Notes under the pieces: generated by a model
What the model was told of the DNA's origin: nothing
Database searches by the model: none
The model's input: the letters and a program-made list of their open reading frames with translations, nothing else
Assembly: GCA_030549795.1 (NCBI GenBank)
Contig: JAUQQO010000010.1
Coordinates: forward strand, 372,001-436,000
From: Pseudomonadota bacterium
Lineage (GTDB): Bacteria; Pseudomonadota; Alphaproteobacteria; Geminicoccales; Geminicoccaceae
Length of the DNA stretch: 64,000 nucleotides
Reading direction: 5' to 3'
Program-made: the position numbers and the translations under genes
In this document: one piece after another, positions 41,097 through 44,553 of the stretch
How the letters are laid out: each line of letters begins with the position of its first letter
Numbering within the stretch: the first letter of the stretch is position 1

Positions 41097-41516
41097 TTAA
41101 TAGTCGCCGCCGCGGGGCCCGCCGTAGCCCCCGTGGCGCGGTCCGCGCGGGCCGCGCGGACCACCGAACCCGCCCGGACCGCGACGCTCGCCGAAGCCGG
41201 CTCGCGGGCCACCGTACCCGCCTTCGTGCGAACGCGCACCCCGCGCACCGCGCGGCGCACCGCCGGGCCCGCGCTCCTCGGCCAGGCGGACGGCGATCGT
41301 GCGCCCGTTCATTTGATAGCCGTCGAGTTCACGGATGGCCGCCTCGGCCTGCTCGGGCGAGCCCATCTCGATGAAGCCGAAGCCGCGCGAGCGACCCGTG
41401 TCGCGATCGGTCGCGATTTTGGCGTAGACGACTTCGCCATGGGCGCTGAACAGGTCAGTCAGCTGCTCGACGGTAGTGGTGAAGGGGAAGTTGGCAACGA
41501 AAAGCTTACGGGACAT
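41097..41516 (-). CDS. RRM-type RNA-binding protein with Gly/Arg-rich tail
   Basis: A 139-residue protein. One RNA recognition motif covers residues 1-82 with RNP2 LFVANF and RNP1 RGFGFIEM, aromatic residues intact. The remaining 55 residues are a low-complexity RGG-like tail (repeats of GGYGGPRG and RGPGGFGG), resembling eukaryotic glycine-rich RNA-binding proteins and cyanobacterial Rbp proteins. Such proteins are often cold-induced RNA chaperones. The gene has its own terminator and a probable promoter far upstream, giving a leader of about 220 bases. Confidence 0.94.
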   Translation of the reverse strand: MSRKLFVANFPFTTTVEQLTDLFSAHGEVVYAKIATDRDTGRSRGFGFIEMGSPEQAEAAIRELDGYQMNGRTIAVRLAEERGPGGAPRGARGARSHEGGYGGPRAGFGERRGPGGFGGPRGPRGPRHGGYGGPRGGDY

Positions 41517-42614: not shown

Positions 42615-43064
42615 TTAAGAAGAGCTCGCCTCGCCGTCGCCCGGGCGGTTGATGGGAATCTTGCGCGGCCGCATCGCCTCCGGGACGATCCGCTCCAGCC
42701 GAATGTCGAGCAGCCCTTTGTTGAGCGTGGCGCCGATGACGCGGACGTGATCGGCGAGCTGAAAGCGGTGCTCGAAGGCGCGCTGCGCGATGCCGCGGTG
42801 CAGATATTCGACGTCTTTTTCGGGCTCGCGGATCTGCCCCCTCACCGTCAGCACATTGTCTTGCACAGTGATCTCAAGATCTTCTTCACCGAAGCCGGCA
42901 ACCGCCATGGTGATGCGGTAGCGGTCGGCGCCCTGTTTGACGATGTTGTAGGGCGGATAGGAGGTGTCGCGCTGGGCTTCGCGCAGTGCCGCCTCGAACA
43001 GCTTGTCGAGACGCTCGAAGCCGATCGTCGAGCGGAAGAGAGGCGTGAGATCCAGACTACGCAT
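42615..43064 (-). CDS. Small heat-shock protein Hsp20 (IbpA type)
   Basis: A 149-residue alpha-crystallin-domain chaperone. The N-terminus MRSLDLTPLFRSTIGFERLDKLF and the sequence YPPYNIVKQGADRYRITMAVAGFGEEDLEI are typical of class A proteobacterial sHsps (IbpA, HspH). The domain ends with GLLDIRLERIVPE, and the C-terminal anchoring motif is KIPI. The ATG at 43064 has GAGGA eight bases upstream. That ribosome binding site is masked in a ROSE-like hairpin, so translation is probably heat-induced. Confidence 0.94.
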   Translation of the reverse strand: MRSLDLTPLFRSTIGFERLDKLFEAALREAQRDTSYPPYNIVKQGADRYRITMAVAGFGEEDLEITVQDNVLTVRGQIREPEKDVEYLHRGIAQRAFEHRFQLADHVRVIGATLNKGLLDIRLERIVPEAMRPRKIPINRPGDGEASSS

Positions 43065-43126
43065 CGTTCTCGTCCTCATGCGAGCGACAGGCCCGCCGCG
43101 TGTGTCATTGCGACCACACCCGCGGG
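43065..43126 (-). promoter_or_regulatory. ROSE-like RNA thermometer in the hsp20 leader
   Basis: Just before the hsp20 start the mRNA reads GUCGCUCGCAUGAGGAC (43088-43072). UCGCU matches the ROSE anti-Shine-Dalgarno motif U(U/C)GCU and pairs with AGGA with one unpaired G, the arrangement known from rhizobial ROSE elements. A second, stronger hairpin (43126-43092) has stems CCCGC/GCGGG and GUGUG/CACAC. The inference is that the hairpin melts on heating and frees the ribosome binding site. Confidence 0.7.
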
Positions 43127-43554
43127 CCACGGTAGCGGGCGGACCCCGAAGGCATCCGCCGCCCGAGGATGTGGGCGAGGCATGCGGCGCTTCAAGGCCG
43201 AACGGCCCGGGTAACGCGTGCGCTCGTGCCTCTCGAGGCATCCCAACGTCCACCAGCTCGTCCCAACACCCGGCAGCTCGGCGGGACGCTCGGGCCGCGG
43301 AGGGCGCTCGGTGGCACCCGGCAGCGGCGCGGGGCTCGCGCATCCGGCACGCTCGAACGATCGCCTGCCATCCCGGCTCCAATACGCGGCGCACGAGCGA
43401 GCGGGCACGCGGCTTGGGGCTCTGCTGCGACGGTTGCTCATCGCCGAAGAGCCTGGCACGAAATCGTAAAAGGAAAGTTTGCGGTCGAGCGGGCGATCCG
43501 TCCCGATCGCTTCCCTACGCTTCCCGAGGGCAGCCGACGCAAAGGGTCCCAGCC
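43127..43554. other. 430-base divergent upstream region
   Basis: This lies between hsp20 and the permease gene starting at 43555 and should hold both promoters. Frames of 80-150 codons cross it on both strands without motifs or ribosome binding sites. TGGCACGAAATCG near 43452 resembles half of a sigma-54 promoter, but the TTGC half is missing. I see no binding-protein gene for the permeases. Confidence 0.45.
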
Positions 43555-44553
43555 GTGCTGCGCTATCTGCTCTACCGTCTGCTCGTCATGGTGCCGACGC
43601 TCCTGGCGATAAGTCTTTTGACGTTCGTCATCATCCAATTGCCCCCGGGTGATTTTCTCTCAGCGCATATCGCCGAACTCCAAGCCCAAGGCGAAGCGGC
43701 ACAGCAAGAGAAAATCGAATATCTTCGACAATTGTATGGGCTCGATCAGCCAATGTGGCAACAATATCTCTTGTGGCTATGGGGGCTCCTGCACGGTGAT
43801 CTCGGCTGGTCCTTCGAGTACGACAAGCCGGTCGCCGAGGTGATCGGAGACCGTATCTTCCTGACCTTTATCGTCTCGTTCGCGACCGTGCTGTTCACCT
43901 GGTTGTTGGCGTTTCCGATCGGGGTGTACAGCGCTACGCACCAATACAGCTGGGGCGATCACGGTCTGACGTTTTTAGGTTTTCTCGGTCTTGCGACGCC
44001 GAATTTCCTGCTCGCGCTCATCATGCTCTACTTCGCCAACGTGTGGTTCGGAACATCGATCGGAGGGCTCGTCGATCCCGAGTACATCGATCAGCCGATG
44101 AGCTGGGCCAAGTTCCTTTCGGTGCTCGAACATCTGTGGATCCCGGTGGTCATCATCGGCACCTCGGGGACCGCAGCGATGATTCGCCGTTTGCGCGCCA
44201 ACCTCCTGGACGAATTGCAAAAACCCTACGTGATCACGGCCTATGCCAAGGGCCTCTCGCCCCGCCGGGCGCTCGTTAAATACCCTCTGCGCATGGCTCT
44301 CAATCCATTCATCGCCGATATCGGGAACCTACTGCCCGAATTCATCTCCGGTTCTGCGTTGGTATCGGTCGTGCTTTCACTACCTACCACCGGACCTTTG
44401 CTGGTACGTGCCTTGCAGACCCAAGACATGTACTTAGCAGGGTCCTTCTTGATGCTCGAATCCTTCTTGGTGGTCTTGGGCGTGTTGATCTCGGATCTGG
44501 CGCTCGCCTGGCTCGATCCGCGGATCCGCTTCGGCCGGGGCATGGCGCGATGA
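43555..44553 (+). CDS. Peptide/nickel-type ABC transporter permease (DppB-like)
   Basis: A 332-residue protein with six membrane segments. The N-terminal LRYLLYRLLVMVPTLLAISLLTFVIIQLPPGD is the DppB hallmark, and the coupling loop reads YVITAYAKGLSPRRALVKYPLRMALNPF. The start is a GTG (43555) with AAAGGG eight bases upstream; longer upstream frames lack support. It ends in a 4-base overlap (ATGA) with the partner permease. No binding-protein or ATPase gene is adjacent. Confidence 0.93.
   Translation: MLRYLLYRLLVMVPTLLAISLLTFVIIQLPPGDFLSAHIAELQAQGEAAQQEKIEYLRQLYGLDQPMWQQYLLWLWGLLHGDLGWSFEYDKPVAEVIGDRIFLTFIVSFATVLFTWLLAFPIGVYSATHQYSWGDHGLTFLGFLGLATPNFLLALIMLYFANVWFGTSIGGLVDPEYIDQPMSWAKFLSVLEHLWIPVVIIGTSGTAAMIRRLRANLLDELQKPYVITAYAKGLSPRRALVKYPLRMALNPFIADIGNLLPEFISGSALVSVVLSLPTTGPLLVRALQTQDMYLAGSFLMLESFLVVLGVLISDLALAWLDPRIRFGRGMAR

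Follow-up and report, generated by a model that had tools for sequence, protein, structure and literature searches.

A ROSE-like RNA thermometer candidate in the hsp20 leader of a Geminicoccaceae bacterium

Described ROSE-type elements and the hsp20 locus

That small heat-shock genes of alpha- and gammaproteobacteria carry ROSE-type RNA thermometers is established, according to the accessible text of earlier reports (PMC4166951, PMC3669281, PMC5756330), which describe more than 40 ROSE elements in diverse alpha- and gammaproteobacteria (PMC4166951) and an Rfam-predicted ROSE before an Hsp20 gene of Gluconobacter (PMC5756330). In the short ROSE-like leader of Pseudomonas ibpA, a gene that depends on sigma-32, a U(U/C)GCU motif pairs with the Shine-Dalgarno (SD) sequence in the 3' hairpin, and the element consists of two hairpins within about 62 nt, as far as the available portion of the source describes it (PMC3669281). 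U(U/C)GCU with a bulged G is also reported for ROSE-like elements before ABC transporter genes, where deletion of the bulged G lowered heat induction (the accessible part of PMC11342760). The leader examined here shares with these systems the pairing of U(U/C)GCU with the SD sequence and the bulged G. It belongs to a small heat-shock gene and lies near the start codon, and presents the sequence and structural features, including two to four hairpins, by which the accessible text of the two latter reports recognises ROSE elements, gene classes other than small heat-shock genes being reported there too. It differs from the Pseudomonas element in having three predicted hairpins in about 100 nt, and from the ABC transporter elements in gene class.

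The window, i.e. the whole 64,000 nt stretch that was analysed (JAUQQO010000010.1, positions 372,001-436,000), derives from a 3.16 Mb genome of the family Geminicoccaceae (Alphaproteobacteria). Its hsp20 gene (42615..43064, minus strand) encodes an IbpA-type small heat-shock protein of 149 aa (PF00011, E 2.7e-19), for which IbpA was the best of the NCBIfam models, scoring 157.3 bits and thereby below the 212-bit cut-off. The AUG start codon (43062..43064, minus strand) was assigned from the starts of relatives and from the match of R1, a covariance model built from the leaders of 28 relatives without the window genome, which ends there. A longer ORF with a GTG start at 43394 was ruled out as the gene start, since the start codon of most relatives coincides with 43064, preceded in some of them by an in-frame stop a few codons 5' of it. 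An additional in-frame AUG (43077-43079, minus strand), located five codons 5' of the start, overlaps the loop of the SD hairpin described below; it is absent from the genus relatives L004-L008.

An ORF for a peptidase C26/class-I glutamine amidotransferase (PF07722; 41797-42609, minus strand) is positioned a few bases past the hsp20 stop codon, and 17 of the 20 Geminicoccaceae hsp20 loci examined, the window's included, have a homologue downstream on that strand (at a distance of about 1 kb in L009 and L018). Because this arrangement is kept, hsp20 and the C26 ORF may form one heat-induced operon. A gene for an RRM-like RNA-binding protein, named from its sequence by eye, is located at 41097-41516 (minus strand), and such a gene follows hsp20 on the same strand in all six loci of the genus, again counting the window's. 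Scanning of the window with R1 returned no plus-strand match near the start of the ABC permease gene that is divergent from hsp20.

Leader anatomy and curated Rfam models

The 3'-proximal hairpin of the leader (43089-43071, minus strand) reads 5'-UGUC[G]CUC-GCAU-GAGGACG-3', within a sequence running to the start codon at 43062 as UGUCGCUCGCAUGAGGACGAGAACG-AUG. In its predicted fold UGUC pairs with GACG and CUC with GAG around a GCAU loop, leaving G43085 bulged and 6 nt between the hairpin end and the AUG. The sequence-only reading had described UCGCU facing AGGA with one bulged G, and both the minus-strand sequence and the fold confirm this for the anti-SD motif (43083..43087) and the SD (43073..43076). 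This hairpin, which the fold, RNAalifold and pair counts delimit, corresponds to the temperature-sensing hairpin of ROSE elements. The stable upstream hairpin that had likewise been proposed was located at about 43128-43090 (GGCCCGC...GCGGGCC, minus strand); it is variable within the lineage and absent from the RNAalifold consensus. A third, 5' hairpin (43138..43160, minus strand), GGCGGAU[G]CC-UUCG-GGGUCCGCC, also carries a bulged G and corresponds to ROSE helix I by the Rfam ROSE alignment and by covariation in relatives, with GCGGAUGCC-UUCG-GGGUCCGC aligning to the start of the RF00435 model, bulged G included. Of these three hairpins of the window-leader fold, the 5' and 3' ones are backed by compensatory changes, and the middle one falls outside the consensus. 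The span originally assigned to the element (43065-43126) proved too short, as the 5' hairpin (43160-43138) and an RpoH-like promoter (43196-43169) lie beyond it. Folding energy alone (z -1.95, with 9 of 200 shuffles folding at least equally well) is weak evidence for leader structure.

No Rfam family reached its gathering score anywhere within the 64-kb window. When region 42700-43700 was compared with 4227 Rfam families at E <= 10, two matches were obtained, of which RF00435 (ROSE) was the better, covering model positions 1-94 at 43159-43058; RF01832 (ROSE_2) and RF02523 (ROSE_3) gave no match in this region at that threshold. The covariance search that had been suggested as a check on the thermometer ended at 20.2 bits with RF00435, under the 45-bit cut-off. 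Across the genome (3.16 Mb, E <= 10), however weak each score is by itself (E 1.58 for the window leader and 0.061 for a further hsp20 leader, located on contig 47), RF00435 matched only these two places, and that both coincide with hsp20 starts is telling. The window leader and RF00435 have in common the gene class, a 5' hairpin with a bulged G and a UYGCU/AGGA hairpin at the start codon, and differ in that several pairs of the model are non-standard in the window leader. RF02523 and RF01832, the latter representing the E. coli ibpA leader, likewise stand for ROSE-type regulation of ibpA-class genes, as predicted for the window leader, but neither matches the window region, and R1 conversely misses the E. 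coli leader.

Control searches recovered the E. coli ibpA leader with RF01832 (100.4 bits) and a rhizobial leader (L075) with RF00435 (58.8 bits), and placed a Brucella leader (L090) just under the RF00435 cut-off (42.3 bits). R1 missed both the E. coli and the Brucella leader and scored just 14.6 bits on the rhizobial one, and is thus lineage-specific. Among 31 genomes of the family, RF00435 matched in 18 at E <= 1 and exceeded its cut-off in one, at 51.3 bits; among 142 genomes of the class it matched in six at E <= 0.01, none of them above the cut-off. The single leader above the cut-off (L120, genome G008) obtained just 15.4 bits with R1 and is therefore not of the same subtype as the R1 leaders, of which another leader of that genome (L015) scored 53.4 bits with R1 and 35.3 bits with RF00435. 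Judged by its predicted structure, the window leader is a ROSE element, though under the curated Rfam cut-offs, and its mechanism would be one already known. The initial suggestion that ROSE elements extend to this lineage holds to the extent of one more family, as the known range of ROSE already goes beyond rhizobia to diverse alpha- and gammaproteobacteria (accessible text of PMC4166951 and PMC5756330).

Conservation among relatives

The hsp20 leaders were taken from 144 loci, duplicates included, with Geminicoccaceae MAGs, Arboricoccus pini and Geminicoccus harenae as the named close relatives. A YYGCU-type motif ahead of the SD was found by pattern in 125 of the 144 loci, corresponding to 109 distinct leaders; the 19 loci that failed this first pattern, 16 of which are near-identical uncultured alphaproteobacterial contigs, were all scanned separately. 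Alignment A1 comprised 28 Geminicoccaceae leaders and left out the window genome, the short forms L019, L020, L022 and L047, and leaders L014, L024, L038, L113-L115, L135, L142 and L143. RNAalifold returned two hairpins only from A1, with one unpaired G in each. Pairing was observed in 93.8% of 390 cells, and double changes in seven of 14 pairs (44 cells), helix I being favoured in these figures because the A1 leaders were hand-picked for a recognisable 5' hairpin. The covariation score was 0.323 vs 0.147 in shuffles, none of 500 shuffles was as high on all five measures, and shifting the partner by 1-3 columns lowered pairing to 33-62%. The pair adjoining the motif was GC in 15, AU in 12 and GU in one of the 28 leaders.

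A second comparison was anchored on the anti-SD-type motif and SD only, which could be done for 108 leaders, all but one (L130) of the 109 distinct ones that passed the first pattern. Of the four outer pairs next to the motif, the first (-1/+1) was complementary in 105 of 108 leaders (AU 64, GC 25, GU 12, CG 4) and the following three in 77/94, 71/90 and 52/87, each value being reached by none of 2000 shuffles. With the partner of the first outer pair shifted by -1, +1 and +2, complementarity was 0/108, 17/94 and 49/90, respectively; these shifted-partner controls retain the relatedness of the leaders, which the shuffles ignore. Within the six genus leaders of the window paralogue, only the first outer pair was constant (6/6), the second being kept in four.

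Upstream of the leader, an RpoH (sigma-32) type promoter, CTTGAA-N15-CCCACAT (43169..43196, minus strand), was assigned from its motif in relatives and the presence of rpoH in the genome (one gene above the model cut-off and two weaker matches below it). The form CTTGA[A/C/T]-N15-CCCACAT is present in 6/6 genus leaders of the window paralogue, including the window's, and a relaxed RpoH pattern was found in 56 of 109 leaders vs 27 of 1619 background blocks of the same length (same loci, one strand). The RpoH1 promoter consensus is given as CTTGAA-N15-16-CCTATAT in the accessible part of PMC4843759. A good promoter of this type, together with a folding energy only modestly under that of shuffles (z -1.95), would be expected if heat control were transcriptional only and the leader passively structured in a GC-rich genome. 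Such passive structure would not covary, whereas compensatory changes and a preserved bulged G were observed across 28 leaders and the same kind of hairpin occurs in AT-rich relatives, so that purely transcriptional control appears very improbable.

On the window, R1 assigned 56 bits to the hsp20 leader (E 7.2e-10), the next match having an E value of 1.2. Genome-wide, two significant matches were obtained (E 1.9e-11 and 3.5e-8, followed by a match at E 2.09), each of them on the leader of an Ibp-type hsp20; the contig 47 leader scored 71.8 bits, above the window leader. The anti-SD motif is short and its Rfam match lies under the cut-off, as would suit a chance hairpin of the kind of complementarity expected in any GC-rich leader. 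Such a coincidence is, however, exceedingly improbable given the R1 score in a genome kept outside the training set and the restriction of significant matches in 3.16 Mb to two hsp20 leaders; covariation and the R1 genome scan together led to rejection of both chance and passive structure in a GC-rich genome as explanations of the hairpin. The best reading is the one initially proposed, a ROSE-like thermometer on hsp20, to which the motif with its bulged G, the gene downstream, the layout of the hairpins, covariation and conservation across the family all point.

In the family, R1 matched in 29 of 31 genomes at E <= 0.1, a count that is partly circular because the 28 training leaders come from Geminicoccaceae and the model includes the start codon; G017 and G040 gave no match. 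In the class, under stricter filters and at E <= 0.01, 24 places in 21 of 142 genomes were matched. In all 24 the match runs up to an hsp20-homologue start, two of these places (G005) being training rows.

The genome encodes four Hsp20 proteins as judged by PF00011, two of which are of Ibp type. The second Ibp-type gene (L001/L145) has a ROSE element on contig 47 (G000:C47:20632-20748, minus strand) and is followed on the same strand by an ORF that is DnaJ-like by eye. The other two Hsp20 genes, which lack a window-protein match at E <= 1e-10, gave no R1 match genome-wide at E <= 10; one of them (L203) scored 17.3 bits in a 13-kb search (E 0.015), not significant genome-wide.

The two Ibp paralogues bear on a further explanation, namely that the hairpins are mainly an operator through which an IbpA-type protein represses its own leader, with relief by titration by unfolded clients and not by melting. 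Translation of E. coli IbpA is repressed by the protein itself via R93, and both R93 and Y34 show good conservation among alphaproteobacterial IbpAs, as described in the accessible text of PMC10474464; the window protein has equivalents of both residues. The second paralogue has Q at the R93 position, likewise E. coli IbpB, but retains an SD-pairing hairpin before its gene, an argument against the operator that is itself weak since E. coli IbpA suppresses IbpB too (same text). In addition, a thermometer and self-repression are described together on one leader in the accessible part of that report, and self-repression is therefore rather an added layer than an alternative. An operator as the main function of the hairpins seems unlikely. 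As the window protein has equivalents of both R93 and Y34, self-repression may nevertheless act on top of a ROSE-type thermometer in this gene, by analogy with the E. coli protein.

The separate scan revealed a variant in which A[C/U]GCU pairs with AGGU, replacing UYGCU/AGGA, in 16 of the 144 loci (two distinct hairpins, from near-identical uncultured Alphaproteobacteria) and in L118 (swapped-pair hsp20 leaders: L084, L092, L095, L098-L101, L103, L104, L106-L112 and L118). The bulging G is present by design, as the variant scan pattern requires it, whereas the complementary flanks (three to five further pairs) are not imposed by that pattern. Across the 144 loci, the first motif pair was U-A in 107, A-U in 18, U-G in eight and other in two, and was not found in nine. 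The swap within the hallmark motif adds to the evidence for selection on pairing and not on sequence. With A[C/U]GCU and AGGU, these leaders do not conform to the definition of ROSE by U(U/C)GCU.

The R1 scan of the 31 family genomes also returned, in one genome (G011), a weak match (E 0.0086, calculated for a single genome) before hspQ (TIGR02097). By eye, this leader (L205, G011:C5:99503-99578, minus strand) contains an ACGCU/AGGU hairpin, GGAC[G]CU-ACUG-AGGUC, a further hairpin 5' of it, and a promoter resembling those of RpoH. Visual inspection of the other 29 hspQ leaders of the family did not reveal the hairpin as clearly common, L214 offering only 4 nt of leader and L212, for example, reading UCGCUCGCGAGGU without complementarity of the L205 type. 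ROSE as an hspQ feature of the family was therefore set aside, and the G011 leader is regarded as an isolated candidate.

Proposed heat response and its lineage context

The anatomy of the leader, its covarying pairing, the promoter motif and the position of such elements at the start codons of hsp20 genes, all established here, can be accommodated in a model that is, in our assessment, highly probable, in which a ROSE-type thermometer acts together with the RpoH promoter on hsp20. Transcription from the sigma-32 promoter would begin near 43160 and yield a message whose leader, of about 100 nt, acts as the thermometer. At growth temperature, UCGCU would pair with AGGA in an imperfect helix with one bulged G and, with the SD paired in the 3' hairpin, ribosomes could not load. 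Upon heating, the 3' hairpin would melt first, presumably within the relevant temperature range, the upstream hairpins would persist, and the freed SD would permit translation of the small heat-shock chaperone, with RpoH simultaneously increasing the message level. Opening by heat and translational induction are thus the predicted parts of this model.

Temperature-dependent folding in silico argues neither clearly for nor clearly against a thermometer. The SD hairpin alone is predicted to open smoothly, from 0.2% at 25 °C through 9% at 55 °C to 54% at 80 °C. When the whole leader was folded by partition function, the SD stayed 0.40-0.50 unpaired across the range of 25-80 °C, with no clean transition, because of competing folds, and this whole-leader fold is ambiguous. 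The predicted free energy of the SD hairpin at 37 °C averaged -8.2 kcal/mol over the 12 genus leaders of both paralogues vs -5.9 kcal/mol in the other 96 leaders; in a regression with locus GC, the genus term was -1.27 (t -2.04, relatedness not corrected for). In the six genus leaders of the window paralogue, the SD hairpin alone is predicted to be half open at widely scattered temperatures (62-96 °C), absolute temperatures being untrustworthy in such calculations. These values give a weak hint, suggestive only, of set-point tuning in the genus by means of a stronger SD hairpin.

The GC content of rRNA is linked with growth temperature. A 16S rRNA gene was found in six of the 31 family genomes, and its GC content was 62.3% in the window genome and 63.7% in G005 vs 58.8-58.9% in two genomes of genus g16. 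For the V4 region, the values were 61.0 (window genome), 63.0 (G005) and 63.0 (G003), with 57.9-58.6 in g16 and 62.0 in G017, which belongs to another genus. The 16S GC content fits a warmer habitat of the genus. Geminicoccaceae MAGs, possibly of other genera, are described from springs of 68-71 °C in the accessible part of PMC12126322.

A literature search on Geminicoccaceae thermometers, mostly among papers open without subscription, found no related report, and the occurrence of ROSE in this family may be unreported. The standard Rfam ROSE model exceeded its cut-off in 1/31 genomes vs matches of R1 in 29/31, a comparison in which the thresholds differ (cut-off vs E <= 0.1) and R1 was trained within the family. 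This suggests that the standard model misses nearly a whole alphaproteobacterial family, and hence that heat-shock RNA thermometers are under-annotated. A broader proposition is offered tentatively and appears doubtful at present: that the lineage possesses a ROSE subfamily outside the three Rfam models, on two Ibp paralogues with and without the self-repression arginine, in a probably thermophilic genus with a strengthened SD hairpin and an upshifted set-point, and that the class tolerates ACGCU/AGGU, such that motif surveys undercount these elements. Should the genus prove thermophilic, its leaders would constitute a natural series on how the set-point of an RNA thermometer is moved, with genera of the same family available for comparison.
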